Below are positions 1,984 to 60,583 of a stretch of 64,000 nt of DNA, one piece after another; within the stretch, counting starts at the first letter, position 1; each line of letters starts with the position of its first letter. Source of the DNA: Fistulifera solaris (lineage: Eukaryota > Bacillariophyta > Bacillariophyceae > Naviculales > Stauroneidaceae); the NCBI GenBank assembly GCA_030295235.1, contig AP026132.1, positions 929,501 through 993,500 of the forward strand. Reading direction: 5' to 3'. Both the position numbers and the translations under genes were made by a program. Under the pieces are notes generated by a model. It searched no databases. It was not told the origin of the DNA and saw only the letters and a program-made list of their open reading frames with translations.

Positions 1984-2048
1984 AATCCGGATAAGTGAGA
2001 GGTTTTAGTTCAAATGAGCCTTATTTTATTTACAACCGGTAGAGCCTT

Positions 2049-10452: not shown

Positions 10453-11174
10453 GGGTAATCTCGATTTGTGCTTGACGCAATACGACGTTTAGATCTCAAG
10501 TTGAAAAAAAAAGACGAGCTGGTCGCGTAAATGCGTCGCTGCAGCAAACAAAGGGGACGACAGGCCTTCAACTTCCAGTGATATCAAATGCTGTTTAAGC
10601 TCACGATACGATGACTTCTTCGTCAATAGATGGATAAAGGTATTCCATCAAAAGCAATAACAAGAGCAACAACAAAAAATCTCCGTAAGTTTTATACGTC
10701 GAGTGAGTAAAAAACGAACCAGAACCGATCCGACACTTTACAAAGTAGATAAAGGAATAAAGTGGGCACAGTACCAGTACCAGGTACCGGTATGTCATTT
10801 CAGACAAATAATGAATGCAAACGCAGTTCAAAAGAAGAAACTATGGATGCACGCGTATTATTCTTGTATCTCTAGAGAGACACTTTCGCCATGATTAATC
10901 GTCGGAAACTCTTGCTGCAACCTGCTAAATTAGTCTTTCAAAAATGGCTAAAGCGCTGAATTGTTGTCCGTATTTGGTCACGACTGGATATCAGTTTTGA
11001 GTCATGAATGGTTGCCAAGTTTCGCGCGCTAAGTTTAGGATACTAGCTAGACCATTATTTTTTAAAACAATAGATTCACATATGCAATTAGCTAATCTGT
11101 AAAAACGCAAAGCGTAGCTAGACGCCTACACATTTGGATCAAAGGCTGATCTTGCTTCCGAGTGGCGTGTCCAT
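10453..11174. other. 722-nt intergenic region upstream of UGGT
   Basis: It holds the UGGT promoter side and the 3' flank of the HD-domain gene. It contains one E1-like palindrome at 10982-10996, read in minus orientation and so pointing toward UGGT. It also has a small run of overlapping GTACC/GGTAC palindromes near 10770-10792. No gene is seen. Confidence 0.5.
10982..10996 (-). repeat. E1-like palindromic element
   Basis: GACTGGATATCAGTT followed by TTGAGTCATGAAT matches the E1 palindrome plus its CATGACT flank when read on the minus strand. No clear CTATAG box accompanies it, so this is a weak member of the family. Confidence 0.4.
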
Positions 11175-12656
11175 CTACGCCGCTGTCAAAAGAGGAACGA
11201 CTTGGCTTTCAATCATCTCCCGTCTGGGCATTGCCAATTTTGCCATACTTTGAGTGACATGCATTGCAGCTTCCTTCGGTAGATTTGTGAGCAGCGTCTT
11301 GGCTTTCGCTAAATCCATCGGATAGACAGCAACTTCCTGCAGTATTCTTTCGACTCCTTCGTCGCCTAGAAATGAATAGAAGTACGCAGCCAGCGGTGAA
11401 TGCCGCACGTCGAAGGAGCATTCACTTCGTCTACCAAAAGCCAGAATCTCATAGACGTCGGCATCGCACTTTTCGTTCGGTTCTTTCTTCGGTTCTGGGA
11501 GCCAGTTTTCCAAACGATTGCTGCTCTGCTGTTGGGACGGAAGATCTCCCATAAAGACACTGACAGGTGCATCGCCACCGGTAAGCTCTGCGATTGCCGC
11601 CAGAACGGAAAGAGACAGTAATTTGGCACCAACGTACTTTCTTCCCACTTCTAAATTACGTTTGGCATTCAAAGTTAGTCGATTTAATTCTTCATCCGAT
11701 GGAACGCCCCTGAACTGACTGAAAATCACGTTGGGCTTCAAAAAGCCGAAGAAGCCATACATTTTGAAAAGCCCAAATTGAAACTCCTTTACAGTGTACA
11801 GGAACTGATGACGAAGCGCTTCGTTCGACTCCGGAAGCAAACTCCAGGTATTGTCGAGAAACCACAATTGATCGTCCGATCCAAAATTGCCGACATCTTC
11901 GTTGGCCAAGTCTGCGGCACGCTGCACACAAAGGACGCACTGCTCCTCGGTAAGATTAAGCTTAAATTTTTGAGTTGTTGTTAGCATTCGATGGTACAAA
12001 CGATCCAGTGGTGATCCCAGCAATGGGTCTGTGGGACGGAATGGAATCGTAGATTCGATGCAACAGGCAATCGCTGCTAACTCTTCTTTGGCCAGCGCGA
12101 AAGCGAGTTCTCTCACAGCAATTACCGCCGATAGAAATTCGTTCAATCCTGTCATCGGTGTCAGCTCGTCACCTGGCTTTCTGCCAAAGATATCAATCAC
12201 TATAGCTAAAACTTCATCCTCGTCGGAGCCAGCATCGGGGCTAATCCTTAGTGTCGTTTGTCCATTCGCTTCCTTTTCTATAAGAAGAACTCCTCGCAGC
12301 TTCTCACTTTGAATTTTCGAAAGCCCTCCGTCGATATTGTAGTAGACGCAATCATGAAACAAAGCCGCCAATATTGTAATAGGATCAACAAGATGTTTGG
12401 AGACATCGAAGACATGCTGCACGGAATGATAATCGCGGCTGCTGATCGACATGCTCTCATGAATGAGGGTAGACATGGACTCAATTTTCGTCGTGACATC
12501 ACCTGATAAGGGATCAACGCCCAATTCCTTCAAACATCGCTCCATCCGCTTCACTAAGCGACTTATATAAGGGCTGGCTTCATCGTCTTTGCCATAATCA
12601 ATACACGGTCGCTTCGTTGCTGGTCCGATGGGACTGCCGCGCTTCGTCAACGACAT
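11175..12656 (-). CDS. HD-domain protein (putative metal-dependent phosphohydrolase)
   Basis: The predicted protein has about 493 residues from the ATG at 12656 (MSLTKRG). The frame stays open upstream to 12797, but that extension is basic and low in complexity, so I prefer the internal start. An HD-superfamily core is visible at about residues 75-115: YHSVQHVFDVSKHL followed by ALFHDCVYY, giving the H...HD metal ligands. HD proteins are typically phosphodiesterases or nucleotidases. The first His-to-HD spacing resembles cyclic-nucleotide phosphodiesterases, but I do not see their full signature. The C-terminal half (for example FGLFKMYGFFGFLKPNVIF) is not recognised. The substrate is unknown. 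Confidence 0.65.
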   Translation of the reverse strand: MSLTKRGSPIGPATKRPCIDYGKDDEASPYISRLVKRMERCLKELGVDPLSGDVTTKIESMSTLIHESMSISSRDYHSVQHVFDVSKHLVDPITILAALFHDCVYYNIDGGLSKIQSEKLRGVLLIEKEANGQTTLRISPDAGSDEDEVLAIVIDIFGRKPGDELTPMTGLNEFLSAVIAVRELAFALAKEELAAIACCIESTIPFRPTDPLLGSPLDRLYHRMLTTTQKFKLNLTEEQCVLCVQRAADLANEDVGNFGSDDQLWFLDNTWSLLPESNEALRHQFLYTVKEFQFGLFKMYGFFGFLKPNVIFSQFRGVPSDEELNRLTLNAKRNLEVGRKYVGAKLLSLSVLAAIAELTGGDAPVSVFMGDLPSQQQSSNRLENWLPEPKKEPNEKCDADVYEILAFGRRSECSFDVRHSPLAAYFYSFLGDEGVERILQEVAVYPMDLAKAKTLLTNLPKEAAMHVTQSMAKLAMPRREMIESQVVPLLTAA

Positions 12657-13143
12657 TCTGCTTCGAGTCGTTACGCGAGTTGAGGTATCTGTTTGGTAAA
12701 TGATGAGGATCAACAGACGTCTGCGGATTGTGGACCCAGATGAAGAGGCATAGAGGAGTCGGAATTTTCCGGCATCTTTCTTGACATCTTGTCGCAAGAT
12801 TTTTTCACGCGCAAAATGAAGGTCTAGTAAGCTGTCTACACAATATCATATACTCAATTAGATTAAGTACCGCATCCATAAATTCTCTACGCGAAACGCG
12901 AATACCCAAAAGGCCCAATCAACAATCCTTGCGGTGCACGTTCTACGCTTCCTCCGGGTCTTCCCCTGAATTTTTCGTACCTTTAGCCGGAATGAGAATG
13001 AATAAAAATACGGAGCATAGACTAGATGACTGTCAAACAGTCAAACACGGGATGCAATCAACTCATCTTAATTGTGAGTCTATTGTTCCGAGCTTATAAG
13101 GAAATCTTTATAGAGCGATGAACCCAATTTATTAGCTGATTGG
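12657..13143. other. 487-nt spacer upstream of the HD gene
   Basis: The 3' end of the fibrillin gene and the 5' flank of the HD gene meet here, both on the minus strand. The first 140 nt could be extra N-terminal coding sequence of the HD gene. The rest is AT-rich with no recognisable element. Confidence 0.4.
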
Positions 13144-14106
13144 CTAATAAGAGCCCTCCATCATTGTCGGGTCATCCTCTTCAATACCACCCGTTGAAAC
13201 AGCAGCTAGCAACGCTGAGGGCCAGCATAAAAGCATACCAAGTATGCTCAAGTTTCGGAAAATCCCGGAGCACCGCCAAACTCCCATCAAACTTGCCAAA
13301 CCAAAGCCCCCAAAGAATGACACGAGTTGTCTTTTCCCCACAGGTTTGTGCGCCACCAGACGTTTCCATTCATCCGCCACGGGATCATTAGACCGCACAA
13401 AGACAAATCGTGAGCCTTTCGAACCTTTTCCAATTCTCACACGATTGTCGCAGAACGTGGTATCCAAAAAGACACTCGAGGTCGGTCCCAAAGACAGACT
13501 CAACAAGACTTTGTTCTGGCGTGTACAAAGGACGACACGCGGCGGATCAAAATCCGCGCGCACCGTTCGCGGCGACAAGCCTCCCGGTGTATTGCGGACT
13601 GCCGACAATCGATCACGATCCAGCGAGCTGAGACGAAAGGCATCGCCTCGCAGAATGACATAAATCCTCCAGAACAGAATTCTTACAATGATCATATTCA
13701 CCGCTTGAGCGACGGAGTTTTGTACTTTTTTCGGTATTAAGTGTTGCCATTGGCTTTCGAGTACGAAGGGTCCACGATTCCATTTTCCTCCCACGGGTCG
13801 CTCGTTGGGTAAATTGGGCAATGTGAAGGAGACATTGTAATTTCCCAACAGCGGTTTGAACAAAGATTCGTCGTCCTCCGCGTCAGATCTTGGAGAATTC
13901 AATGCACTGAGTTCCTCTATTGTTTGACGAATGGAAGTTTCGTCGCTATTGTGTTGCACCAATTCCAAGAGCTGATCGACTTTGTCGGTTACAGAAGAAA
14001 ACAAAGGCTTCACGTTCCTCCTCAGCGACGGACACGGCGATATCAGACTATTCGCACGAATCAGCAGAATTAGCGCTAGAAGCAAAGAATGTACGCTTCT
14101 CGCCAT
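13144..14106 (-). CDS. Plastid lipid-associated protein (PAP/fibrillin family)
   Basis: This 320-residue protein starts with a signal-peptide-like hydrophobic segment (residues 1-20) and a basic Ser/Arg transit-like stretch, the two-part leader expected for a plastid reached through the ER. The PAP/fibrillin domain follows: a helical part (VDQLLELVQHN...IRQTIEELSALN), the characteristic LLGNYNVSFTLP with a nearby GGKWNRGPF, and a C-terminal strand RFVFVRSND. Fibrillins bind lipids and help organise thylakoid membranes, plastoglobules or quinone synthesis. A hydrophobic segment near residues 280-300 (LGMLLCWPSALLAAVS) suggests membrane attachment, which is unusual for the family. It is divergent with the gene at 14468. 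Confidence 0.8.
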   Translation of the reverse strand: MARSVHSLLLALILLIRANSLISPCPSLRRNVKPLFSSVTDKVDQLLELVQHNSDETSIRQTIEELSALNSPRSDAEDDESLFKPLLGNYNVSFTLPNLPNERPVGGKWNRGPFVLESQWQHLIPKKVQNSVAQAVNMIIVRILFWRIYVILRGDAFRLSSLDRDRLSAVRNTPGGLSPRTVRADFDPPRVVLCTRQNKVLLSLSLGPTSSVFLDTTFCDNRVRIGKGSKGSRFVFVRSNDPVADEWKRLVAHKPVGKRQLVSFFGGFGLASLMGVWRCSGIFRNLSILGMLLCWPSALLAAVSTGGIEEDDPTMMEGSY

Positions 14107-14467
14107 TTTCTTTTCGAGGAACAGGTAATTAACTCTACCAATAAGTTGTGTTTCAATAAAATAAAATGATCAACGCCTTGATTTTTGGGCGTTTTGTCAT
14201 TGTTTATCGAAAGCGCGGCACCCACAAATATACGGAGCGACATTTACACGATCTGCGAATAATGTAATCTTTCGGTTGGTGATGCAGTATTACGTTTAAA
14301 GTAGTCTTGTGCTTTTGTTTTTCCCTTAACCTTATCCGCAAACGACGCTCGCGATGCTCGATCGCGAGAAAGATAAGGTTGTCTTTGTTGCAAAGTAAGT
14401 TTCAAAACGAAAGCCACAGTTGATTAAAGCACTAACCATTTTCCTGAAGTCGTTCAACTGATGAATA
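14107..14467. promoter_or_regulatory. Bidirectional promoter region with nested inverted repeats
   Basis: This 361-nt region separates two divergent genes and must hold both promoters. At 14328-14380 lies a two-level perfect palindrome: outer arms AACCTTATC (14328-14336) and GATAAGGTT (14372-14380), inner arms CTCGCGA (14348-14354) and TCGCGAG (14362-14368). It could be a paired binding site or a transcribed hairpin. Confidence 0.5.
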
Positions 14468-15615
14468 ATGAAGCAAATCAAGTTGATGGTGACGCCTCAA
14501 CCAGGGGCAAAACCCGAATACATTGACGACATTCGGTTAGTCGATGATAGCCCTGCTCTTCTCGCGATATGGCAAAACAATTTACCATCGGATCAAATCA
14601 CACTCGAAGCGTACTCTAAAGATTCTTGGGCATGGAAACCGGGGAGTGACTGGATAACTCTGACGGTTGAATCCGGCACCGGTCGTAATAAACTTCCAGG
14701 ATTTTGTGACTATTTGAAGCAACGACAAAAGTCGGCCTTTGCTCGGTTTCCTCCGACGGGCATTTTCGTGATTTCCTACATTCAACCGAAAAGTACACCC
14801 GATGCCTTTCGGATGCAATGCCGGGTCGCCATAGACCTGTCGAGAATACCCAATTGTAATTTGAAGCCGCTTACTGTACTTAAAGCAGCCATCAAGCCGC
14901 CATCGACGAGTGTGGGTCCACCTCGCAAAGGAGGAGGCTTATTAGCGAAACTAGTGGGAGCTCAGGAGAGAACCAATCATCATGTTGCCATGGCTTCGAC
15001 CAAAAGAAAGCTGATGCTGCCCCGGTCAACGCTGCTGTTGAAGGAGCATCGACAAAACCAAGTAGTGTTACGAAACGAACTGCGGCCGAAGTATTTTCCG
15101 CATTCCGACAAACGATGCAAGACAAGATGCTTGATTTTGATTTGGATGAAAGTGAAGAAGTGTTGCGTGTTCAAGTCTCACTGGCCGAACATGTCGCCGG
15201 CCTGTCGGACGAAGACAAAGGACGTGTGACGATGGAAGTTTTGAAATACATGGTGTACGAAGCTGCAGAAGAAGTGAATGAAGAATGGATTGCACATAAA
15301 GAGCCATCGGAATTTATGGATGAGGTGACTATCGCGATATACAAGGAAGGTGCCGCGCCCGATGATGTTTTAGAGGAAGTGAATAAAGGTGAACTTCCCG
15401 ATGAAGTACGAGGCCAGCAACGCGCCATTCAAGAAGAGCGCAATCGACAGGTGAACAAAGCCGAAAATCGAACTTCTCAACTCGTGGAAGCCGATGCTCA
15501 CCGTCAGTTAGACGATGGAGATGAGGAGGATCTCGCCGTTTTGAACACAGCCAAACGAGATCGACGGACAATCGAAGACTACGAAAGGGAGAAGAAGCGA
15601 TCACGAGGTTCGTGA
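14468..15615 (+). CDS. Unrecognised conserved-looking protein (weak SPOC resemblance)
   Basis: The ATG at 14468 opens a frame whose first 160 residues look like a folded domain. A stretch GFCDYLKQRQKSAFARFPP leading into GIFVISYIQP loosely resembles the SPOC domain core, but I would not assign it. Around A4 at 15002-15005 the frame shifts by one base; with one more A the product reads on through ASTKKKADAAPVN into a charged helical region and ends at 15615, about 380 residues in all. The C-terminal 60 residues are Glu/Arg/Gln-rich and probably coiled-coil. The function is unknown. It converges with the next gene, leaving only about 60 nt between stops. Confidence 0.6.
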
Positions 15616-15674
15616 TAACTATAGTTTACTTCTCACAATAACATCAGAACTAAAAGTGCTATCTGCTAATATTT

Positions 15675-16460: not shown

Positions 16461-16594
16461 TTGAATTTATGAAATGAATCTAGTTGCATCGACGAGAAAA
16501 CAAGTGCCAAACCCAGCGTCAAAAATCTAAAGGCGTCGAGTGTCATCGCACGTCCCCAGAAAATCTGGAGGATTTTTGCTACACATCTACACAT

Positions 16595-16693
16595 GACTGA
16601 AATGCAATCGTGGTCTCCTGAAACCATCACTTTGGGTCTATAGTAAAAACGGAAGACAACGCTTCGCAAGACTTTTCCACGTAAAATACAATG
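16595..16693 (+). repeat. E1 dispersed element, full-length copy
   Basis: It begins with the palindrome GACTGAAATGCAATC (16595-16609), runs through CTTTGGGTCTATAGTAAAA (about 16630-16648), and continues to ACTTTTCCACG and AATACAATGA. The copy at 51816-51915 matches it over the whole length (about 100 nt), with the same order of blocks. It points toward the gene at 17676. Confidence 0.7.
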
Positions 16694-16789
16694 ACGGTTG
16701 ACAACCGCTTCCGCTTGCGGGAAGGGCAACAGCGAAAAAATGCTCCCCGCAGGGGCTAGCCTACCACAGGTGGCATGCTACAATAATAG

Positions 16790-17335
16790 ATCTTAAGCTA
16801 GTCATGATCTCACCTTAATATTTCGCGTAATTGCGACCTTTATGTTTTTACTATGATCCAAACAGTTGGTTGTACCAATTCACGACTGGATTGCTGTCAT
16901 GAGACTGCATCGATCCTATTGTACATGCAGCCTACAGCGCGAAGTGTGTGTTTTTTTCGCGTTTGATTATAGTCTCATTACTATAATGGATCCAAAGCTA
17001 ATCATGCTCTCACTTTAGAATTTCGCGCAATTGCGATTTCAGCCGGCAATGTCTTCGGGTCCTGATCTTCATGTTTTTACTATTATCCAAACAGTTGGTT
17101 CTACCAATCCACGACTGGATTGCTGTCCTGAGAAAAAAATCTTTTGTACATGCAGCCTGCAGCGCGAATCCTGTGTCTTTTTCGCGTTTGATTATAGTCT
17201 CATTACTTTAACAGATTCAAAGCTAATCATGCTCTCTCACCTTAGAATTTCGCGCACTTGCGATTTCAGCCGGCAATATCTTCGGGTCCTGACCTTCATG
17301 TTTTTACTATGATCCAATAAGTAGGTTACCATTTC
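16790..17335 (+). repeat. Degenerate tandem repeat, unit about 200-230 bp, 2.5 copies
   Basis: Three successive segments share the same blocks: AGCTAATCATGCTCTCAC, then ATTTCGCGCAATTGCGA, then CAAACAGTTGGTT, GACTGGATTGCTGTC, TACATGCAGCC, and finally TTTTTCGCGTTTGATTATAG. Copies start near 16790, 16988 and 17215; the first lacks an internal block present in the later ones and the third is truncated. Each full copy carries an E1-like palindrome (16884-16898 and 17113-17127). Confidence 0.75.
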
Positions 17336-20689: not shown

Positions 20690-21458
20690 GGTGCTGTGAC
20701 AGTATTGATGTTGTATCCTTTTATTACCGATCCTTGCTTTCTAATCACTCGCTCTTCAAACTTCAAACCGCTTACATAATTCAAGTTTTTCATCAAACTA
20801 TTGCGATTGTAGATAATATCCATGCCGTGCATCGAACGCAGTGCCATGCGGCCAACAGCCAGCATCCATTCGTTGCCATTGGGTTTTACTGCGAATGATG
20901 AAAAACCTAGATCTGGTTTTTACGAAGATTATTTTTGTGGAATCTCGTTGTAACAAATCACTATAGGCCAAAGTGTGTCTGTTTTCACCACGACTGCATT
21001 TCAGTCATGAATCATAATTTTCCAAGCTCGACATTTATTCAACCTCCTCTCGTCTTGCAAGACTGATAACATGTACAGGTCTTTAACATGATGCAATTAT
21101 TATCAGCAGTTGCGATTCACGTCTTGCTCACAGCAAGAGGGAATGTGAGAACATTGTTGACGTTTTCGGGACTGGCTCTATTTGGTTCACGCGAAAAGTC
21201 GCACTGTGTGCCGTCAAGACTACATTCCACTCCACAGTAACTGGTTGTCGAGTTCGTACCACTGACAGACGATGACGTCTTGCGTCTTTCCGTCTTTATT
21301 CCTTCCATCATTCGTTTTTTTGTTTGCGCGTTTTTTTTTCTCGAAACCTCTTGGTCGCGAGATGGGGCTGGAACGAAGAACGTGCCATTTCATTCGTTGG
21401 GCGTAAGGTTCAAAGGTGAGGAGAAGAATCGAAAGACACCCACCACACACATAACAAA
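20690..21458. other. 769-nt intergenic region upstream of GTP cyclohydrolase
   Basis: It carries one E1 element in minus orientation at about 20960-21006. From 21110 to 21458 it is promoter and leader of the next gene. No coding feature is seen. Confidence 0.5.
20960..21006 (-). repeat. E1 dispersed element, minus orientation
   Basis: The perfect palindrome GACTGCATTTCAGTC occupies 20992-21006, and the reversed box CTATAGGCCAAAGTGTG starts at about 20961. Read on the minus strand this is the standard order, palindrome then CACTTTGGCCTATAG. Unlike most copies it does not point at a downstream start codon. Confidence 0.65.
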
Positions 21459-22712: not shown

Positions 22713-23990
22713 TTAGTCAGTTCCCATAAGCGTTTCTTCGATTTCCAAAAATCGTTCGTCTTGCTCGGGATCTCGACCGCGGGCCCAGCCTTCATTGGTT
22801 AGTTTATTTGTTACTTCTGAAGAGCAAAAAGTGTGAGATAACTGAAATTCGATGACGGATTGATTTGATGGTTTGATACGCACTTCGCTTCAACGGCTTT
22901 AGGTGCAATGGATCTTCGCGTTCTAGTTTCCGCACTTGCTCTTTCATCGGTTCTGTGACATGTTCCTTGACCGGTTCAATGATGTTCTTCTTGACGGGAT
23001 CTGTGATATGCTCCTGAATAGGATCTTTGCGACCCAATCCGAAAGGGTGTTTGAAGAATCTGACCACAGACGACTCTCGTTTTAATGGAGAAGTTTGGTA
23101 ATTCGTCGCATCTTAGATGTCAGAAATAAATCGTGAGCTAAACGAATGACATAATTTTTTGGAACGGAACTGTAGATACTCACAATCATGACGATTCAAA
23201 GGATCAGCATTCAGCGGGTCCTCGTGTTCGAGCTTTCTCAAATCATCGTCGGTGGGGTGTTCCAAACTTCTTTTGACAGGATTAATAATATTTCGTTTGA
23301 CTGGATCAGTTACGTGCTCTTTAACAAGATCATCGCGACCAAACCCATATGGCACTTTAGAAGACCTAGCTGAGGCTTCCTCTTCCACGGGGGTCATTCC
23401 GTATTGAGCAGAGTCTTTTTTTAACGAATACAAGATTGCAATGTAAGTACGGCGATAAAACGAGCATTTTTCAATCAACCGAGGATTCTTACTTCGGTTC
23501 ACTGATTTGAGATGCAGTGGATCCTCCTTCTCGAGCTTTTTGATCCCCTTCTTTACGGGTTCTTTGATATGTTTTCTGAAAGGTTCCTGGATATGCTCTT
23601 TGACGGGATCTTTGTAACCCAAGCCGAAAGGATGTTTCATGAACTTCATCAAGGCGGACTCTTCCGTCGGTAAAGTTCCTTCTCGAGCACGGCCTTCGAA
23701 AGGGAAAACGAGCAAGGGGTTAGCTCATGACCATCATTTATTGGCAATTGAGAGATTCGAATATTCGTATAAATTCACTCACTTCGGTTCAGCGTTTGGA
23801 GGTACAAAGGATCATTTCTCCCGGAATATGGTTGGCGTTTCTGTACGTCCACGTTTGCGGGGTTATGAATGCCTAAACCGAAAGGGTGTTTCAAGAATCT
23901 CATAAGGGGCGACTCTTGAATTGGCAGCGAGGCTTCTGGCCGCGCAGAAGCTCCGACAGCAAGCAATGGTAATAGATGAATCACACGCAT
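22713..23990 (-). CDS. Secreted repeat protein built from duplicated symmetric exons
   Basis: There are five exons: 23783-23990, 23493-23693, 23184-23414, 22884-23111 and 22713-22816. The four GT-AG introns are 89, 78, 72 and 67 nt, and all are phase 1; the spliced length is 972 nt, 323 residues plus stop. Residues 1-16 form a signal peptide (MRVIHLLPLLAVGASA). Each of exons 1-4 codes one unit that contains a KHPFGLG-type motif (KVPYGFG in exon 3), then in exons 2-4 several 8-residue steps of the form [DEN]P[VIMF]Kxx[IV]x (for example DPVKRNII and EPVKEHVT), then EDPLHLK and NR. Exon 1 is a shortened unit. Exon 5 is an acidic tail. No known domain fits; function unknown, probably extracellular or endomembrane-lumenal. 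Confidence 0.8.
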
Positions 23991-35716: not shown

Positions 35717-36004
35717 GGTGATGTCTTGATGGGTCGGCTTTGACTTTTGCTTTGTGTGTCGAGTTTACTCGATTGTTTTTTTATGAGACGAACTCATCGC
35801 ACTCCCTTTGAACAACACGACCCACAATTTGTAAACTGGAAACGTTTTGAATATAAAAACTGCATCGTGCGTTACAGTTTCGGACGACCCGTTTCGTTGC
35901 AACAAAACTTTTGGAAACGAAACAATAATGCGAGCGGTTTTCTTTGTCGCAAAAAAATTGAGTCTTGCTTCGAAAGTCATATCCGGGTTATCCTCTGTCG
36001 AACA

Positions 36005-36047
36005 ATTTCCTACGAGGACTACGTGAAAGTGACGTAGACATTGAAAG
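36005..36047 (+). repeat. E2 dispersed element, copy 1
   Basis: ATTTCCTACGAGGACTACGT is followed by GAAAGTG and ACGTAGACATTGAAAG. The CTACGT / ACGTAG pair makes an inverted repeat. Three other copies in the window share the same order of blocks. Confidence 0.6.
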
Positions 36048-36219
36048 TGCTGAATCAAAATCAAAACTTCTTTCAATGTCTTGAATGTGAATAGAAATCG
36101 CAAATTGGTTGCCAAACCGAGTACGATTGTTGAGTAAAGTAACAATGGCATCGGGCCCATAGACGCTAAGATGAGTAAGATCAAATTACACAATCTCGTT
36201 GAAGTACCTACGTCGCTAA

Positions 36220-36330: not shown

Positions 36331-36369
36331 CTTTCATATTGCTGAAAGTGAATAATTATATTTGCAGAC

Positions 36370-37700
36370 GGACGCGAGAGACGCAAAACGGAACCCTTTG
36401 TTGTTCGGTTCATGACTACTATACAATCCAGTCTTGGCTCTTGGCTGGCGTAAACCAACACTCCGTAACATAGTGGAAATATAAAAAGGTGTCGATCCTC
36501 GGATTATTTCGACGTGAAAATAAAAGAAACTCTCAACAATTAGTTCATAATCATCATTGTTGCAACTTTATTTACCCGTTATTATAATTATATTATATTC
36601 GCAGTTGAATAAAAAGGGACGGATGCGAGATGACGCAAAGCGGAACCCTTTGCTGTTCGGTTCATGACTACCGCACAATCCAGTCTTGGCTGGCGTAAAC
36701 CAACACTCCGTTCTATAGTAAAAAAATACAAGGTGTCGATCCTTCGGATTTTCGACGTGAAAATAAAAGAAACTCTCAACAATTAGTTCATAATCATCAT
36801 TGTTGCAACTTTTTTACCCATGTTTTAATTATATTCGCAGTTGAATGACAATGGACGGATGCTAGAAACGCATAACGGAAGCCGCTTTGTTGTACGGTTC
36901 ATGACTCATGACTACTGTACAGTCCAGTCTTGGCTGGCGTAAACCAACACTCCGTTCTATAGTAAAAAATACAAGGTGTCGATCCTTCGGATTTTCGACG
37001 TGAAAATAAAAGAAACTCTCAACAATTAGTTCATAATCATCATTGTTGCAACTTTTTTTACCCATGTTTTCATTATATTCGCAGTTGAACGAAAAGGGAC
37101 GGATGCTAGAAACGCATAACGGAAGCCGCTTTGTTGTACGGTTCATGACTCATGACTACTGTACAGTCCAGTCTTGGCTGGCGTAAACCAACACTCTGTA
37201 TTATAGTAAATATACAAGGTGTCGATCCTTCGGATTTTCGACGTGAAAATAAAGAAACTCTCAACAATTAGTTCATAATCATCATTGTTGCAACTTTATT
37301 TACCCGCTATTATAATTATATTCGCAGTTGAATGACAATGGACGGATGCGAGAGACGCAAAACGGAAGCCTTTGTTGTACGGTTCATGACTCATGACTAC
37401 TGTACAGTCCAGTCTTGGCTGGCGTAAACCAGCACTCCGTTCTATAGTAAATATACAAGGTGTTGATCCTCGGATTTTCGACGTGAAAATAAAAGAAACT
37501 CTCAACAAGTAGTTCATAATCATCATTGTTGCAACTTTTTTACCCATGTTTTAATTATATTCGCAGTTGAATGACAATGGACGGATGCGAGAGACGCAAA
37601 ACGGAAGCCTTTGTTGTACGGTTCATGACTCATGACTACTGTACAGTCCAGTCTTGGCTGGCATAAACCAACACTCCGTATCATAGTGAAAAAATGAATG
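36370..37700 (+). repeat. Tandem array: six copies of a roughly 243-bp E1-bearing unit
   Basis: The block GTAAACCA(A/G)CACTC recurs with its TAAACC at 36451, 36696, 36940, 37184 and 37425, and with ATAAACC at 37664, giving steps of 245, 244, 244, 241 and 239 bp. Each unit reads: GACGGATGC, then CATGACTACTGTACAGTCC (an extended E1 palindrome), then GGCTGGCGTAAACCA, CTATAGTAAA, CGGATTTTCGACGTGAAAA, CAACAATTAGTTCATAATCA and TATATTCGCAGTTGAATG. Copies differ by few bases and small indels, so the array is recent or kept homogeneous. It lies just upstream of, and is co-oriented with, the gene at about 37893. Confidence 0.9.
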
Positions 37701-37800
37701 ATGATTCACTTCAAAAATGGCTACAGTAGACTAGAATGTAGTTTACTGACTTCATTATTTCACAAAAATACATAATATCCGGGTATCCCCTCTCTCGATA

Positions 37801-37844
37801 AATTTCCCTACAAGGCCTACGTGAGAGCTACGTAGACTGTAAAG
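37801..37844 (+). repeat. E2 dispersed element, copy 3
   Basis: AATTTCCCTACAAGGCCTAC, then GTGAGAGCTACGTAGAC and TGTAAAGC. With copies 1 and 2 it flanks the tandem array on both sides. Confidence 0.6.
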
Positions 37845-37892
37845 CGCGTGACCATGGTGATGATAATATAACGCAGTATATTCGCAGTTTCT

Positions 37893-45010: not shown

Positions 45011-45592
45011 CTTCCTGTTTTACTGAGTAGACGCTGATCTTACCAGTCCGTCTATTCAAATCTATGATTAATTATGGTTGCATTACGATGACAATAAGAG
45101 GCACATAGACGACTAATGGCTCTATTTTTCAGTTTTTTGTTTTTTGTTTTTTCGTTCCGCCATCCAATCAATCCATTGGTGGTACGACATCATCTGTCAT
45201 TCATTGTGCTTTCTTGTGGATCTATAAAAGATTGGTCCGTTTGAGTAAGAGAAGAATAGAGTAGATGCAACATTACAATCAAAGTCACTTCAAGAGAAAT
45301 AGCAAAGAGGGTTTTCACCGCAGATGCAAGAAGAATCATAGAATACATGGCAAAACAAGAAAAGAAATGACCCATGACTCAATCCACTCGTTAAAAAGTC
45401 GTCTTCTCTTTGGGGTTATAGTAAATAAATATATAATGAGGTTTAAAGTAACTTTAAGGCTTTTTGACGCAAATAAGTGCAAGGATACACTTCAAACAAA
45501 GTGATAGAAATAATGCCATCAACATTATCCCTCTTACTATCGTTCATGGAGCTTTGTGTTGTCAATGTATTCCATTTCGCTGTTTGGGTCAT

Positions 45593-45690
45593 GACTCAAA
45601 TCCAGTTGTTGCAACCTACATTTGAGCCTATAGTCAAAAATGGGCAAACTTTCCGGAAGAGCTTTTCGACGCCCACAAAACTCGCGATGA
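45593..45690 (+). repeat. E1 dispersed element
   Basis: The palindrome-like GACTCAAATCCAGTT (45593-45607) is followed by CATTTGAGCCTATAGTCAAA (about 45618-45637) and GCTTTTCGACGCC. Block order and orientation match other copies, and it points to the PPR gene. Confidence 0.65.
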
Positions 45691-45792
45691 GGCGTATCAA
45701 CTGAAATATTACTAGCTAGACCGTTATGCTCTATTTTACATGTTTACATCTTTCGCGTAAACATTATCGGTGCCCAACTTTTTCCTCGTCCT

Positions 45793-45850
45793 GACTCAAA
45801 TCGAGTCGTGTCATAGTGGCGTAAACTGACACTTTAGTCTATACCAAATT
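45793..45850 (+). repeat. E1 dispersed element
   Basis: GACTCAAATCGAGTC (45793-45807, perfect 5-bp arms) is followed by GGCGTAAACTGACACTTTAG and TCTATACC. The GCGTAAAC block links it to the tandem-array units at 36.4-37.7 kb. Confidence 0.6.
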
Positions 45851-51700: not shown

Positions 51701-51815
51701 AATTGTTAATTGGTATAAAGTAGCTATGTTGATGAGACCAGAAAATATGGAGGATTGCTGTTATCACGATGTATACAAAGTACTCGAATAATGCGTACAC
51801 TGATTCACGACTCGC

Positions 51816-51915
51816 GACTGAAATGCAGTCGTGGTCTCCCCTGAACCATCACTTTGGGCCTATAGTAAAATTTGAGACAACGTTTCACAGGACTTTTCAA
51901 CGAGTAACACAATGA
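51816..51915 (+). repeat. E1 dispersed element, full-length copy
   Basis: The perfect palindrome GACTGAAATGCAGTC (51816-51830), GTGGTCTCC, CACTTTGGGCCTATAGTAAA (51850-51869), GACTTTTCAACGAG and CACAATGA. It is the best match of the copy at 16595-16693. Confidence 0.75.
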
Positions 51916-52032
51916 TGTGTAATGCAAACGCTGCTAATGACTATGCATTGCAACATCGACAAAAGGAGCTCAAGATATTATGCTGAACAACTTAATTTTA
52001 GGCAGCATTGTCGCTCATATAATTGAATTAAT

Positions 52033-52080
52033 GACTGAATTGCAGCCTTGGATGAGTCAAAGTACACTTTCGATTATAGT
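52033..52080 (+). repeat. E1 dispersed element, short copy
   Basis: GACTGAATTGCAGCC (52033-52047) is followed by ACACTTTCGATTATAGT (about 52064-52080), 138 nt before the ATP-grasp start codon. Confidence 0.55.
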
Positions 52081-52217
52081 ATTTATAGTGGTCGTGCTTT
52101 GAGACAAACGGAAATTCTGAAGTGCTGTGTGCTGTGTCAAAAGTCAAAAAAACCTCCGCACTTCATTACCATTCCTCTCCGAGGGAAAGCAATTCCCATC
52201 ATGCACCTTTTTCCGCA

Positions 52218-53145: not shown

Positions 53146-53214
53146 TCCACTAAACTTATAAATTTTTCTTACCTCGAACGCTGAATCTATTTGAGTCAAC
53201 ATTCGTGGTTTTCT

Positions 53215-54530
53215 CAATATCACCAACAGAATCACAGAACTTCTGTAGGATCCATAATATTGTGTTCCAACGTTTGGTGAACGTCCACAAAATTTAAGTC
53301 AGATGAAAACACCCTGGTCCAGAATTTCTGGACCATCCACAGAATTTCTGGACCATCCACAGAATTTCTGTATGACGAGATCGCAAATTCCAGAATTTCT
53401 GGAATTTACATGAGAACGCTATTTGATATAAAATACCGTGTCGAGACTTTGTGGAAGCTTCACAGAACTTCGTTAGGATCCATAAGATTGAGGTCCAACG
53501 TTTCTTGAACGGCCAAAGGATTTCTGTATGACGAGATCGCAAATTCCAGAATTTCTGGAATATACATAGGAACGCTATTCGATGGAAAATACCGCGTCGA
53601 GACTTTGTGGAAGCTTCACAGAACTTCTGTAGGATCCATAATATTGAGTTCCAACGCTTGTTGAACGTCCACAAAATTTCAGTGAGATGAAAACACCCTG
53701 GTCCAGAATTTCTGGACCATCCACAGAATTTCTGTAAGACGAGATCGCAAATTCCAGAATTTCTGGAATTTACATGAGAACGCTATTCGATGAAAAATAC
53801 CGTGTCAAGACTTTGTGGAAGCTTCTCAGAACTTCTGTAGGATCCATAATATTGAGTTCCAACGTTTGTTGAACGTCCACAAAATTTCAGTCAGATGAAA
53901 ACACCCTGGTCCAGAATTTTTGGACCTTCCGCAGAATTTCTGTATGATGAGATCGCAAATTCCAGAATTTCTGGAATTTACATGAGAACGCTATTCGATG
54001 GAAAATACCGCGTCGAGCCTTTGTGGAAGCTTCACAGAACTTCGTTAGGATTCATAATATTGAGGACCAACGTTTCTTGAATGGCCAAAGGATTTCTGTA
54101 TGATGGGATCGCAAATTCCAGATTTTCTGGAATTCACATAGGAACGCTATTCGATGGAAAATACCGCGTCGAGACTTTGTGAAAGCTTCACAGAACGTCG
54201 TTAGGATCCATAATATTGAGTTCCAACGTTTGTTGAACGTCCACAAAATTTCAGTGAGATGAAAACACCCTGGTCCAGAATTTCTGGACCAACCACAGAA
54301 TTTCTGTAAGACGAGATCGCAAATTCCAGAATTTCTGGAATTTACATGAGAACGCTATTCGAAGAAAAATATCTTGTCCAGACTTTGTATTTGTGAACGC
54401 TTCTCAGAACTTCGTTAGGATTCATAATATTGAGTTCCAACGTTTGTTGAACGTCCACAAGATTTCTGTGAGATGAAAACACACGGTCCAGAATTTTTGG
54501 ACCTTCCACAGAATTTCTGTATGAATCTGC
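53215..54530 (+). repeat. Palindrome-rich satellite, seven copies, mixed 157/208-bp units
   Basis: The landmark CACAGAAC (or CTCAGAAC) recurs at 53233, 53461, 53618, 53826, 54033, 54189 and 54404, giving steps of 228, 157, 208, 207, 156 and 215 bp. Short units lack a block (AAAACACCCTGGTCCAG...) present in long ones. Each unit carries inverted repeats centred on AGAATTTCT: TTCCAGAATTTCTGGAA (for example 53387-53403 and 53544-53560) and, in long units, GGTCCAGAATTTCTGGACC (53316-53334, 53700-53718, 54272-54290). Open frames on the minus strand through the array simply follow the repeat period and are not genes. Confidence 0.9.
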
Positions 54531-54858
54531 TTGAAGTATTGTAGAATTTACTGTAGTCTAGACAAGACGACCCTACCTGGTATCACTCGCTAGTTTCTTT
54601 AATTCCCGACCCTTACCGGTACTAGGACGATTAAATATAAAATACAAAAATCACTTGAGCCTTCCGTTGTGGCATTGCCACGCCAGCATCGCTACTCCCT
54701 CGTTTTTTTTCATCGGAAGCACTTGCACAGCAACGACAATCGGATCGTGCATCAAATTGGCAATCAAATACATCATACCCAACGATTCGGTGAAAAGAAC
54801 ATAGAATATACTCATCAGGGTCATAATAGAGACGATTTAACGCTGAAAGAGTCTTGCC
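54531..54858. other. Spacer between satellite and STIMATE-like gene
   Basis: This 328-nt stretch is the promoter side of the next gene. It includes AT-rich sequence at about 54630-54660 and a short open frame without a domain. No element was recognised. Confidence 0.45.
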
Positions 54859-55754
54859 ATGGCATACGAAAATGAAGAAGTTCGTGTGTGTAAAGTGTAC
54901 GACAGGGACGATGTGTTTACGTTGCTAGTACAGATTGTTCTTGCTCTGTTTGCTCTCGGGTCACTCTATTTCAAGCGGCTACAGGAGGATCCTCGTCGAA
55001 CGTTTCAAACATGGTTTCTCGATGTTTCCAAAACAAGGAATTGGGGCTTGTTACGCGCACGTCTTGAACATGGTAAGACTATATTCATTGATTTTTCGTT
55101 CCGAGGTCTTTGCTTCAGTTGCTCACGTGTTTTATTCAACAATAGATGATCGCGGCGGTAATCTCGCAAAATATAAGAGGCGAATCCGTTTTAGAGGATC
55201 AGTGCGCTTGGTATGGAATGTCTTACATAATTGATACGTCGCTGGGTTTGATTATTGCCATTATGTTTCTGCAAATGCTCGACAAGATTGCGAACGATCG
55301 TCAATGGAGAGCTTTGATGCAGTCTGGTGTTTACAGTGGGGCTGATGCCTTTCCTCATTGGGCAGCTCAGGTTGGTGCTTGGATGGTAATCCTTACCGTC
55401 ACAAAATTCATGATATACATTTTTATGTGGGTCTTCTCGAGCCCGCTAGCTTATATCGGAGGACTCTTGTTTGCGCCCATACAGGGCAATATTCGATTTG
55501 AGCTCGTGTTTGTAATGATTCTTTTCCCTGGCGTCTTGAATGTAATTTACTTCTGGATTGCGGATGGCTTTTTGAAAGCCAAGAAAGAGCATGCGGCCGC
55601 TCACGAGACAGATGGGTTGGAAGATAAACGCGTGGCTTTAGTAGAGGGGGAGACTCAACAAGAAATGGTGACACCATATGCTGCAGCACCATGGAGCTCT
55701 CTGGCGACAAATGCTGACAAAAATGATCACGGAACGGCCACTGCGTCAGTCTAA
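54859..55754 (+). CDS. STIMATE/TMEM110-family membrane protein
   Basis: Exons 54859-55072 and 55146-55754 flank a 73-nt intron (GTAAGA...CAATAG). The protein (about 273 residues) matches the family order: a first span (LLVQIVLALFALGSLYF), the stretch KRLQEDPRRTFQTWFLDVSK, then QGIGACYAHVLNM, then EDQCAWYGMSYIIDTSLGL, the family signature, and further spans (GAWMVILTVTKFMIYIFMWV, FELVFVMILFPGVLNVIYFW). Animal STIMATE sits in the ER and supports store-operated calcium entry at ER-plasma membrane contacts; a similar role here is inference. Near A4 at 55030-55033 one base appears extra: with three A the frame reads DVSKQGIGACYAHVLNM straight to the splice site. Confidence 0.82.
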
Positions 55755-56270
55755 CGAATCTTTTGTATCACTGTTTATAATACGATAACAAACATCGACA
55801 AGTCATGTTTTTTCTCTTTTGAACCTCTGCTTTGACAACAATTTATAGCTCACGTAAATACTATGGCGACAACGATAACATCGCTTGTCTACGAAACAAA
55901 TCCCGGTTCGATTTGACGTCGGTGACATACTTATCGCTAACTCCATCGTGTATGAGCAATGAGAAAGCCGAAACAACAAAGCCATCCCATTCTAATCTCG
56001 ACAAAATAGTGACCCTATTGACCGATGTAAAGCAAGGGACACGTTACTTGCAGCCTCAAAAGGTATTCAACGTTCTACCCCGACAGCACTTCAGTGAAAA
56101 ATCAAAACAAGCAGACTGCCCTTATATCTTCGTTTAATTGGACAAAATATAGGCTGCATTTTAATTGTACGCGACGATCATGAACGTCGTGATTTTCTTG
56201 CAAATTACGTAATACTGTGCTAACCCGAATCGACTATAGCTGGAATTGTCTTGTCTACTTACTTTAGCGC

Positions 56271-56285
56271 GACTGCATTTCAATC
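56271..56285 (-). repeat. E1 palindrome, minus orientation
   Basis: GACTGCATTTCAATC, with a reversed CTATAGC box at about 56234, fits E1 read on the minus strand. It does not point to a gene start. Confidence 0.5.
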
Positions 56286-56485
56286 ATGAATCAAAAGTGT
56301 ACCTAAACTAGTCTAAATTATTTTTCGTTCTTCGTTCATGCGACCAGCTAGCTGAGTTATGTATGTTGTCAAAGCGAAGCATTAACTTTGATCAGCATTT
56401 GCATTAACACTCATTGACCAATGATTTATGATGAATGATGAAAACGAAGCAGCTTGAATAGACCACAACACGCTAGACGTCAAGT

Positions 56486-56900
56486 GACTGAATTACTGAA
56501 TTTTAGTCGCGATCGCGTACAATAAACACTTTACCACTATAGTGAAAATGGCAGTCGACGATACTGTTGCTTTTCGACGCAAATAGTTGCGTTTCGAATG
56601 AAGATGGTAGTTTGATTATGCACTGGTAATACCATGGCATTTAGTTATAGACTTCGCGCTTTTCTTTGACGACCTTTTGGTGCTCTCATTGCTTCGGTGG
56701 CATTTCAAGTGACTGAATTTTAGTCGCAACCAACACTTTACCATCATAGTAAAAATGGCAGTCGACGATACTGATGCTTTTCGACGCAAATAGTTGCGTT
56801 TCGAATGAAGATGATACGTAGTAGTTAGATTATACTTCGCGCTTTTGTTTGGACCTTTTTGGCTTTTTGGTGCTCTCAATGCTTCGGTGGCGTTCCAAGG
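56486..56900 (+). repeat. Direct duplication containing two E1 copies
   Basis: Segment A (56486 to about 56700) and segment B (56711 to about 56900) share the order: GACTGAATT...TTTTAGTCGC, AACACTTTACCA, CATAGT or CTATAGT plus GAAAATGGCAGTCGACGATA, CTTTTCGACGCAAATAGTTG, CGTTTCGAATGAAGATG, TACTTCGCGCTTTT and TTGGTGCTCTCA. Unit length is about 225 bp. Both point to the gene at 57139. Confidence 0.8.
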
Positions 56901-57138
56901 TGAGGCCCTAGCACTAAGTGTACAGTACTGCTTTGCAGACTAAATCATACAGTCGCTAAGTACATATTGAAAACTGTCCGTTGAGCAATGCCGTTGCGGT
57001 TTTACAATGCGCTGAACCTGCACTTGAACAAGATGCGCGACAAGCAAAACACATGTGAGATGTGAGCACAACGAATGCATTGATCAACTTCGACCGTTTT
57101 TCGACCAGCATCGAAGCCTACGTAATATTTTTGTTACC

Positions 57139-57816
57139 ATGAAACCAGCCAACAATATGCTTTCACGATATACAGCCTACATGGCGAATCGATTTTGCGG
57201 CGGGTCGTCGCGTAAATTGATTGCTGGCTGGTGGTAAGGACATGATGCTCCCCAATCGACCCGATCTTAAGGCCCATCGTACAATATTTCTCATTCATTT
57301 TTTATTGTTCTTATCTTATTCAGGTACTCTATCTTAGCGTTGACAGCAGCATTGTCGATTTCTTCACTCACAATCCAAGGGAGACGCCCTTTTGCGGAAT
57401 GCTTCGCCTCCGTGTGGAGTGCCTTACTCCTTTGCGTTCTCAGTGTCGGCGGAACAATGATTATGCGTAAATTCCACAATTCCTTGGCGGTCGGTTTCTT
57501 TTTGGGGGGTGTTGTTGCCAGTAGTCAGCTATTTTTCATGCTTTTCTTGTTTTTCATGGGTTATGGGAAAGATCTAAGAAATCACGGAATGTCCTCGAAA
57601 GCGGAGACAATGATGTCCTTATTTTCCTTGGTACAATCGATACTGCTGGGATCGTTTGCGGCAATCCTAGCGGCTCATCGTTCCGAAATTTTAGACAAGC
57701 CGGGAAATGCTGTCATGGAAATGATGGATGAAATGCACGGCATCGGTAGCAACCAAACTACCGACACAGCGGGTGTCGACGGGGCCTCGTACGAAGCGCC
57801 TTCGGTGAGAGCATGA
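57139..57816 (+). CDS. Small multi-span membrane protein, function unknown
   Basis: Exons 57139-57233 and 57324-57816 flank a 90-nt intron (GTAAGG...ATTCAG); the join reads LIAGW-WYSILALTAALS and yields about 195 residues. The ATG at 57139 (MKPANNMLSRYTAYM) is preferred; another in frame at 57055 would add 28 residues. Four hydrophobic segments are visible: WYSILALTAALSIS, SALLLCVLSVGGTMIM, AVGFFLGGVVASSQLFFMLF and LVQSILLGSFAAILAA. Gly-rich spans with GFFLGGV recall TMEM14-type proteins, but I cannot assign it. The tail after residue 170 is short and acidic. Confidence 0.65.
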
Positions 57817-58013
57817 GTTCCGTTTTTCTTTCTTGTTCGCGTAAATGACGTATTGTGAGTGTATTTTTTACTAGTTATATTCATTTTCATTCTACCGCTT
57901 TATACTCCGGACGACGCAAGAGTGTCTTCTTTGACAAACAATATGATAGAATACTTTATACTTTGTACCTAACAAGCACAAAAAGGAAAGATTGGTGGTA
58001 CATTCTGAAATTC
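57817..58013. other. Convergent 3' spacer
   Basis: This 197-nt spacer separates the small membrane protein gene from the CCCH-Smr gene. It is AT-rich with no recognised element. Confidence 0.5.
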
Positions 58014-59775
58014 CTATCGTTTTACAAGCAGGGCGCCACCCTGTCCATTCTTATCTTTCCCACGAGATACGCGATACCCTTGCTCCACCAGCCATTGTAA
58101 TACTGCCGATTCCAATGCACCGCCGCCCTTTTGATGCGTCCGGTTACCGACATGGTGACCCGTACCGGTCACAATCCAAACTTGTTCCGCCATCTCGAGG
58201 CGCTGGGGTAAAACTGTCTCGAGTACTGTAGCAAAAGTCTTGAGCGATTGAAAGTGCAAGTCAATGACACTTTCGTCATGATAGGTTGCGGCCATGACGT
58301 GATTGTATCGTTGTAATGGATCTTCAATGTAAAAAGCCGCGGCGTCTCTGTTCTCGTGGGGATTCCACAAGTCTTGTGGAATCCGGACCGTTGGAACAGC
58401 GGTTGGCGAACTCGATGTAGAAGCAAAGTTCCTTGCGCCGCTGGGGGCTGCAAAGGAAGACGAGCTACTGTAGCCTCTGTAAGCGATGCTGGCAAAAGAA
58501 CCGGGTGGGGATGAAATTGCATACGATTCTTGGAATTGAGTTGGTGCCGCCCAAGATGAAACAGTGCCGCGGTATGCTTGTGCATCGGACTGATAATATG
58601 AACCGTCATCATAAGCGGTAACCACTTCCGGTCGATGTTTATCATGGAATCCGTGGAGAAAGCGACATGTTTCTCCCTTTCCACAACGACCCCGAATCCA
58701 GAAAATGCATGTATGACTGGCAATATTGTGTGAGAACTGACAATCGCTACGGTAGCAACCGGATTGTAAAAGATGGCGACAAATGGGAGGAGCCGTCATG
58801 GCAGCATTGATGACGTATTGCGCGGTGCCAATATCGGCCTGCGCCAGAACGGCGGCTTCGTACGCTGCTTCGTGTGACAAGTCGACATTCATGGAGAGCA
58901 ACATACTTGCAGTAATTTCGTATTGTTCGGGTTCAATAAAGGGATCCGGAACAGACACATTTGTATTTTCTGATGCCAAAGCAGCAGTTTCATCGATGCT
59001 GGATTGTCGCGATCGGGAAGGACGAAAAAGAGCAGCGGCGAGATCCAATGCAGGGTGACTTTTCCTGGTACCGCCTCGACTTGACTTTTTCGAATCTAAG
59101 GCAGGAAAATCGTCTTCATCATGATCAACTGGGCTAGTTGTAACCTCTTCCTGCACACAGGACAAAATGCTTTTGCCTTCTATTCCATCTTCGTCCAGCA
59201 AATGAGGCGGCAACAGACTATCTGCTCGATTCGGTGATATCAAATTAGTTGGTCGCTTTCTTCCTGATTGTGTCGTCTTTACGGCAGATAAGGAAGGAAA
59301 TTCTTCCCTCGTCGTCGGGAGAGATTACAATGCTATCCAAGTGAAACGATGGCTGTGGTTGCGCTGGCACGGAAGTCAAGACGTTGTGATATAGTCCTCC
59401 CAACGATGAGTGTTGTATCTCCGGAACGGGAACCTGATTTTTCAGCACGGATATCGAAATTTCCTCCAATGCATCCTTCACTTCATTTTCCGAGGCAAAC
59501 CCACAATATTCCTGAAGTAATTCTATCAGACCTTCACCGTCGGCGAATTGAGATAAGTCTCCCGAACACTCACGAAGAACTGACGCAACATACGGTCCTA
59601 AGCTGTCATCAGGAAGGGCCTGTCCTCGTTCCAAAGCATGTTTCTCTAGTACCTGCTGCGCATATGCATCGATCAAATCCGGACTCGCGTCCACCATGGT
59701 GGGTTCATCTTTCGAGAAAACGGCGTTCCCATCAAGAGACCAGGCAGAAGACGAAGCTGCCCTAGCGGTCTTCAT
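58014..59775 (-). CDS. Tandem CCCH zinc finger protein with C-terminal Smr domain
   Basis: From the ATG at 59775 (MKTARAASSSAW) the protein has about 587 residues. Domain order: helical N-terminal domain; a short acidic EEEFPSLSA; a CUE-like helical patch (LSMNVDLSHEAAYEAAVLAQ); two CCCH fingers (CRHLLQSGCYRSDCQFSH and CIFWIRGRCGKGETCRFLH); a Ser/Tyr-rich linker; and an Smr domain (VIDLHFQSLKTF, IVTGTGHHV). Smr domains can nick RNA or DNA, and plant proteins with the same mix are linked to poly(A)-binding protein. The frame changes by one base at CCC 59306-59308 (plus strand); with one base fewer it reads DDEEEFPSLSAVKTTQSGRK. Role: RNA-binding, possibly RNA-cleaving. Confidence 0.8.
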
Positions 59776-60583
59776 TCTCTCAGTGATCACTTGAACACTC
59801 CAAAGCCTAAGCCAAGAACTCAAATAGCTCCTCAAACATTACAAAAAGGAGGAGATTCTCGCACCCGCAGTCGTGCTTCGAACGGAATTTATTTACTGCA
59901 GTTCTACTTTTCGGCTGCTGGTTCCTTGAGGCGGTTACTTTCCGGAATGATTACTCTATTTCAGACGATGATAATCTAAACTTGATTTGTAAGTTTTGTG
60001 AAAAGTCTTGTTCATAATAGGGACGTAATAATCGACGCAAATGAAAGCGCGGGCAAGGTTGAAGTACACGCATCACGCGTTCATTTGTTTTTCAACACAA
60101 CACTCTTTGAGTGGGAAAAGATACACAAGCAGCGTGTCTTAGAGTGACTGAAGCATGCCGTGATAGATACAACAAAACAAGGTTTTTCTACTCGATAACA
60201 AAACTATAGAATATAAAGTACTAATTCAATCTTGCCTAATGAATTCGCGTTTGGCGTCAAGCACTCATGACTCATGACTGAATAATCCAGTCAAGAAAAA
60301 AGTAATCTACATTTTGATCTATACTGATCTACTTCTGATTAATAACAATTCGTGTTACTGGCACAGCGGCTACGTATTTTTTCGCACAACATTGCGAGGT
60401 GCGACCTAGAAAAAATACGGCTACGCCGCGACGATCGAGAGCGCAGGAGAGTGCGAGGTGGGAGGGTGAAAAATGCCACCATGATGCGGGCTGACCGTTT
60501 ATCTTATTGTCCATCTATTTTCATGTGACCTCCATCCGGCCTTATCAATAGGAAGCGCTTTGATTCACCTGTATAGAATAAAG
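59776..60583. other. 808-nt divergent promoter region
   Basis: It lies between the CCCH-Smr gene (minus) and the single-TM gene (plus). It carries one E1-like element (60276-60335), which points to the plus-strand gene. GC-rich sequence at 60360-60470 contains paired CTACG/CGTAG-like motifs. No gene is seen. Confidence 0.5.
60276..60335 (+). repeat. E1 dispersed element, diverged
   Basis: GACTGAATAATCCAGTC (60276-60292, 5-bp arms) is preceded by CTCATGACTCATGACTG and followed by ACATTTTGATCTATACTGAT. About 250 nt upstream of the next start codon. Confidence 0.5.

Follow-up and report, generated by a model that had tools for sequence, protein, structure and literature searches.

E1, a dispersed intergenic repeat with three short blocks at rigid distances and random orientation relative to genes in a genome of paired chromosomes

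Drosophila 1.688 satellites are short euchromatic satellite arrays, and they resemble E1, the subject of this report, in forming few-copy tandem arrays that are scattered in intergenic DNA and have expanded in a lineage-biased way. Alpha satellite carries a conserved protein-binding box, the CENP-B box, within a diverging tandem unit, a likeness that E1 would share through putative binding of its own, and ribosomal DNA (rDNA) spacer promoters are, like E1, tandem promoter-like units without coding capacity. To our knowledge, the cis-regulatory and chromatin signals of diatoms are poorly known. E1 was noticed in a first-pass annotation of a 64,000-nucleotide stretch of DNA (C15:929501-993500, hereafter the window), part of a 51.7-Mb genome in 61 contigs whose paired chromosomes would fit an allodiploid diatom such as Fistulifera solaris. 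A literature search, whose scope did not extend to the original F. solaris genome paper, returned no title or abstract describing E1, and the exact 20-nt palindrome string of the element had no match in viral contigs. In the available portion of PMC5935921, the most abundant promoter motif reported in F. solaris is TABASTA, a 7-mer found by DREME, linked with higher expression and reported to differ in abundance between subgenomes.

E1 is a real element with rigid distances between its blocks: the palindrome TGACTGAAATGCAGTC, 27-29 nt, TATAGT, 29-31 nt, and TTCGACG. A profile built from 84 distinct sequences picked on the box alone yielded the palindrome upstream and TTCGACG downstream, neither of which had been used in picking, and thereby bears out the block order of palindrome, box, and TTTTCGACG given in the first-pass annotation. 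The box pattern CACTTTNNNNCTATAGTNAAA, with up to two mismatches, matched the genome 760 times (67 times for the reversed pattern). The right palindrome arm lies 26-28 nt from the box in 74 of the 93 cores having both; an exact GACT..AGTC pair is present in 112 of 157 distinct cores and missing from 45, and its loop measures 7 nt in 70 of the 112, 12 nt in family C (defined below), and 5-15 nt elsewhere. Downstream, TTTTCGACG was found 26-29 nt 3' of the box in 35 of 58 placements, and at a fixed distance in 44 of 62 loci when up to two mismatches were allowed, against a shuffle rate of 7%. A scan for all three blocks with wide gaps (16-42 and 14-44 nt) gave 98 matches, three places being counted twice, versus 2 for the reversed control. 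Among the 59 of these that were measured, a set that omits most of family C and near-identical neighbours, the first gap was 27-29 nt in 46 and the second 29-31 nt in 44. Linker sequences differ between families. Such fixed distances between an upstream element, a TATA-like box, and a start-site-like block are what a TATA-type core promoter module would show. The literal strings first proposed were too strict, since an exact GACTG-N5-CAGTC occurs in the window at 13028, 20992, and 51816 only, CACTTTnGnCTATAGTnAAA has no exact match there, and the box has four free bases rather than three.

How is E1 oriented relative to genes? Genes were called as codon-model open reading frames without introns. 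The sample consists of the window, 40 kb of C16, and loci picked by box match or likeness to family C, so that its densities are not genome averages. E1 orientation is random with respect to genes. Among hits of at least 20 bits, the 22 codirectional intergenes with E1 comprised 8 in which it runs along the genes, 13 in which it runs against them, and 1 mixed case (p = 0.38); counted by hits, 24 had the same and 35 the opposite orientation. All told, 47 intergenes bore E1, 20 of them divergent, 22 codirectional, and 5 convergent, where about 19, 21, and 7 were expected from reference intergenic lengths of 15.5, 17.1, and 5.3 kb, respectively (window plus 40 kb of C16). The types of intergene that hold E1 thus track intergenic length, and the gene-oriented placement proposed in the first-pass annotation, against which random orientation was to count, falls. 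The apparent rule arose in the window because the genes on either side of most loci there diverge and because two copies had been read on the wrong strand: five loci with plus-strand copies (16.6, 36.4, 45.6, 51.8, and 60.3 kb) are flanked by divergent genes, which makes a position upstream of a co-oriented gene automatic, and the copies at 16884 and 17113 belong to the minus strand (Table 1), as judged in part from a fixed-spacing scan in which, with two mismatches or fewer allowed, about 10 matches arise by chance. The suggestion that E1 avoids coding DNA largely holds, with 175 of 184 hits (>=20 bits) intergenic and 9 centred in predicted coding stretches.

E1 copies occur singly or in tandem. 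Adjacent cores on the same strand are 180-259 bp apart in 110 of 137 cases, and the mean unit spacing is 224 bp (standard deviation [SD] 12) at 36 loci, including places where the intervening DNA has no blastn similarity. Likewise, the 21 same-strand neighbour distances below 1 kb, taken from 47 of the 100 listed box-pattern positions, cluster at 217-232 (14 distances), at double that spacing (417-453; 6), and at 634 bp (1). The 110 spacers, drawn solely from core pairs 180-275 bp apart, sorted into families C (~243 bp, 8 loci), A (10 loci), and B (6 loci), with two loci in at least two families; the others formed three groups of two, plus 15 spacers without a blastn match to another. Because the genome search for family C scored the best 40 of 101 candidates, family counts are lower bounds. 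With head-to-tail copies, a regular period, and similarity that is higher within arrays than between them, E1 has the properties of a satellite or tandem repeat. The six copies reported at 36.4-37.7 kb were all recovered as plus-strand units, but they constitute one array of 243 bp x 5.5. Direct repeats at 35982-36060 and 37770-37850 flank this array (~80 bp by eye, 37 bp by repeat search); the homoeologue seems to be single-copy for them, as if the array lay inside a duplicated segment.

Both old and younger E1 loci can be discerned when homoeologous chromosomes are compared. The signal peptidase frame of the window has a 92%-identical protein partner on C16, and for 18 of 19 gene ends taken at other E1 loci a partner contig carries a single counterpart, at 82-94% DNA identity; among the 19, C15:65500 had no partner. 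The available portion of PMC5935921 gives 42 chromosome pairs for F. solaris. At 14 of 18 hand-picked few-copy loci, the homoeologous stretch contains a same-orientation core that scores 18 bits or more, and the remaining four comprise one opposite core, one weak opposite core, and two without any. C17/C18 and C14/C13 also share E1 loci, C13 having one unit (~220 bp) more than C14. This sharing suggests that few-copy loci are mostly old, many of them probably predating the split of the two parental genomes.

Arrays are biased to one subgenome and appear mostly younger. E1 is absent from the homoeologous stretch at five of seven compared loci, namely 36.0-37.9 kb (1877 bp in the window vs. 130 bp in the homoeologue), 51.4-52.2 kb (771 vs. 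88 bp), 16.5-17.6 kb (1120 vs. 361 bp), C21/C22 (66 bp for 367), and C9/C10 (320 bp for 1064). For family C, none of the 75 matches listed genome-wide, from the best 40 of 101 candidates, lies on a verified second member of a chromosome pair. Exact box matches divide 40 to 10 between subgenomes, with 2 unassigned, and three-block matches 81 to 11, with 6 on contigs of unverified pairing; in these counts each tandem neighbour was counted singly. Two loci argue against a young age of arrays: at 56 kb, three minus-strand E1 hits are present in the homoeologue, compared with one minus and two plus in the window, and opposite the array at 1034 kb of C13 a single 74% match survives on C14. In the homoeologue of the 45-kb region, ~5.8 kb with several coding-like frames (L044, C16:891001-901000, at 1916-7698) replace ~1 kb of the window at 45.4-46.4 kb.

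Are the blocks conserved beyond their surroundings? Across 19 orthologous pairs, identity reaches 85% in the best palindrome bins, 76-81% in the box, ~80% in block 3, ~73% in the flanks, and 67% in the linker, and core identity exceeds flank identity by a mean of 0.065 (p = 0.016). Within families C, A, and B, block 3 identity is 0.98, 0.85, and 0.94, versus 0.84, 0.71, and 0.76 for the rest of the unit, and box identity is above the rest of the unit in families A and B. These comparisons make constraint on the E1 blocks suggestive, not strong.

We tentatively favour, at a little under an even chance, the reading of E1 as an ancient tandem repeat, dispersed and non-coding, with a promoter-like three-block module that would mostly drive non-coding transcription if it drives any. 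Its conserved part would be a rigid ~100-bp module within a ~224-bp unit that duplicates in tandem, with a core composed of the inverted repeat TGACTG...CAGTC followed at the distances given above by TATAGT and TTCGACG. Because block distances are fixed over variable linkers, the module may be read on DNA by one multi-contact protein assembly. The layout would be nearest to a TATA-type core promoter, with an upstream element, a TATA-like box, and a start-site-like block ~31-36 bp past the start of the box; a conserved block ~30 nt after TATAGT resembles TATA-to-start spacing. Since E1 points randomly relative to genes, most of any transcription that it started would be non-coding. Most arrays would have arisen later than the few-copy loci, by unit duplication, mainly in one parent. 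Protein reading, promoter character, and means of dispersal are features that we infer. Several points weigh against this interpretation. TATAGT is not a classical TATA box, and the two U6 and two U2 small nuclear RNA (snRNA) genes that were found all lack E1 upstream. The orthologue test is modest: the core is less conserved than the flank in four pairs and equal in one, some flank bins reach 0.80-0.82, weaker cores were matched in a few pairs, four pairs in which no same-orientation core stood out were omitted (L011/L070, L033/L071, L014/L074, and L023/L083), and picking loci on the box inflates box conservation in one member of each pair. In family C, moreover, the box (0.851) hardly differs from the rest of the unit (0.839), and the linker (0.965) is as conserved as the blocks. 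A broader proposal, which we consider rather doubtful, is that a diatom complex acting in chromatin or transcription recognises E1 through its three blocks, as a previously undescribed site set at one-nucleosome intervals across euchromatin, with old few-copy loci, separate expansion in the two parental genomes, differently loaded subgenomes, and a possible influence on homoeologue expression bias.

Could the arrays instead be non-autonomous mobile elements with internal tandem units, whose blocks serve their own transcription or transposase and have no host function? We regard this as possible, though by no means probable. Related arrays do occur on many contigs, and the loci without E1 in the homoeologue (five of the seven compared) would fit insertion. 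Array ends are non-random as well: in the 10 of 14 arrays for which they were measured (8 of family C, 2 of family A), 7 stop at or just past the box and 6 start within 16 nt of the palindrome, and a AGACGGAAATTCTGA-like terminal motif lies 24-26 nt past the box in 7 of the 9 loci that have it within 200 nt downstream of E1. The target-site duplications and terminal repeats expected of an ordinary mobile element, on the other hand, were not seen at two closely aligned homoeologous sites, where intergenic divergence is too high to exclude them, and homoeologue comparisons gave no clean empty site with a target duplication. Terminal inverted repeats are not obvious at the array ends inspected and no coding partner was recognised, neither having been searched for systematically; one array (L003) is followed by an inverted palindrome. 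The sharing of 14 of 18 few-copy loci between subgenomes, with a palindrome conserved above its flanks, is also unlike a dead insertion. A mobile element with its own promoter would be compatible with nucleosome phasing, and the two readings are not exclusive. For phasing, the core would be a nucleosome-free protein site and the ~150-165-bp spacer the length of one nucleosome, giving an insulator- or boundary-like element. This is unlikely in our judgement, although the 15 unmatched spacers (138-176 bp, mean 157, SD 8.6) differ in length from one another with an SD of 12.6 bp. Since this is no more than the SD of 14 bp between unconstrained 155-bp intergenic segments of homoeologues, whose sequences are far more alike (n = 88 segments, some overlapping), their length may be constrained. 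However, part of their equal length is explained by common descent, as some similarity between spacers persists (mean z 1.2; 253 pairs, among them known relatives); the core pairs from which they came had been chosen by distance; and 32 of 72 clusters have a single core. WW dinucleotides peak at 10.2 bp (z 1.9), which is not significant given that seven periods were tried. Small RNAs of Phaeodactylum show a 175-225-nt periodicity over methylated regions in the available portion of PMC4247016, in line with phasing.

E1 was first suggested to serve the coding gene downstream of it, as a directional promoter, an insulator, or a leader. The promoter-like architecture stands, and TATAGTA fits TABASTA, the motif tied to higher expression (PMC5935921, available portion); 9 of the 10 TATAGTA occurrences in intergenic DNA of the window lie inside E1. 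Random orientation in codirectional intergenes, the presence of E1 between convergent genes, and intergene types that follow intergenic length nonetheless contradict a general role as promoter of the neighbouring coding gene and leave this reading very improbable, although a subset of loci could act in this way. Folding gave no support to a leader RNA, the consensuses of three families having energies no lower than those of shuffled sequences (z -0.40, -0.70, and -0.28), and a structured leader-RNA hairpin was rejected. A promoter of the snRNA type, in which an upstream element and TATA drive small RNA genes, would share the rigid distance from upstream element to TATA-like box. We rejected it for U6 and U2 on the four genes mentioned above, in a genome-wide search confined, among small RNAs, to these two, and Rfam at gathering score had no hits in the window; as a whole we hold it to be highly improbable.

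The E1 copies of the window come from an E1 profile search with nhmmer (E <= 0.01), in which several are weak (14-25 bits), and are collected in Table 1 with related features. Coding frames in the window match eukaryotic families, including UGGT thioredoxin and glucosyltransferase domains, signal peptidase S26, ubiquitin hydrolase, and Smr, and there is a match to PPR below its cut-off.

Table 1. E1 copies and associated features in the window (positions count from the first nucleotide of the window)
Feature	Position	Strand	Evidence and remarks
E1 single copy	10948..11025	-	nhmmer 21 bits; orthologous copy aligned in homoeologue C16 (L046 2104-2176)
E1 copy	16561..16696	+	106 bits; homoeologous stretch without E1
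E1 copy (previously 16884, strand corrected)	16843..16913	-	25 bits; CAGTC-28-ATAGT-like, 1 mismatch on minus strand
E1 copy (previously 17113, strand corrected)	17018..17159	-	30 bits; 1 mismatch at fixed spacing, minus strand
E1 copy opposing flanking plus-strand genes	20958..21020	-	39 bits
Family C tandem array, 243 bp x 5.5, end just past CATAGT box	36367..37695	+	TRF
E1 copy absent from the first-pass list	45363..45480	+	27 bits; orthologous copy aligned in C16 (L044 ~1847)
E1 copy with TTTTCGACG	45576..45684	+	38 bits
Weak E1 core (previously 45793)	45789..45837	+	shorter core profile only, 14.8 bits
E1 copy	51805..51925	+	87 bits; homoeologous stretch without E1
E1 copy, last of its locus	51997..52080	+	18 bits
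Terminal motif AAACGGAAATTCTGA	52106..52120	+	25 nt past first TATAGT of the last core of the locus
E1 copy	56264..56304	-	23 bits
Family B E1 copy	56492..56601	+	85 bits
Family B E1 copy, ~207 bp past the 56492 copy	56675..56809	+	79 bits
Weak E1 copy	60244..60316	+	18 bits; palindrome recognisable in aligned homoeologue

Other repeats occur beside E1. Arrays of ACAGAAATTCTGT-like units with a period of ~186-213 bp lie near it at two loci, L066 (C1:1093000-1097000, at 2430-3720) and L047 (C13:1152500-1157000, at 3403-4225), and the terminal E1 motif AGACGGAAATTCTGA resembles their unit. A second tandem repeat of the window (53232-54520; periods of 156, 208, 214, and 364 bp) bears five exact copies and one near copy of TTCCAGAATTTCTGGAA, where 0.46 chance matches would be expected in the window; we take TTCCAGAATTTCTGGAA to resemble a heat-shock element. 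At 22879-23916, 24-bp and larger repeats overlap a minus-strand frame and suggest a repeat-rich protein.

As a rigid multi-block element with hundreds of recognisable copies, many of them common to homoeologues, E1 offers a handle on the DNA-binding complex that would read it. It is also a candidate marker for assigning chromosomes to parents, because family C and most exact copies lie in one subgenome, and homoeologous genes that differ in E1 load provide a testable link to expression bias.

How, then, does E1 differ from the systems it resembles? Unlike Drosophila 1.688 satellites, its three short blocks stay at fixed distances even where similarity in the rest of the unit is no longer detectable, and it is also present as old single copies. 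Unlike alpha satellite, it is spread in many small arrays through gene-rich DNA instead of one centromeric array, with three blocks rather than one. Unlike rDNA spacer promoters, it is dispersed over many chromosomes, and no rRNA was found in the window. The left arm of its palindrome equals motif 6 of Phaeodactylum LHCX genes, [TA]TGACTG, a 7-bp motif that, in the available portion of PMC4915529, has neither the inverted partner nor the box nor the spacing of E1, so that the likeness is possibly coincidental. The tie to TABASTA is closer: TATAGTA, one of its six forms (PMC5935921, available portion), is the E1 box plus A, while other TABASTA variants in the window fall inside E1 in 4 of 19 cases. 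E1 is far longer than TABASTA as that source describes it, independent of orientation, and tandem, and it may underlie part of the TABASTA motif, which would then be a fragment of a larger repeat.

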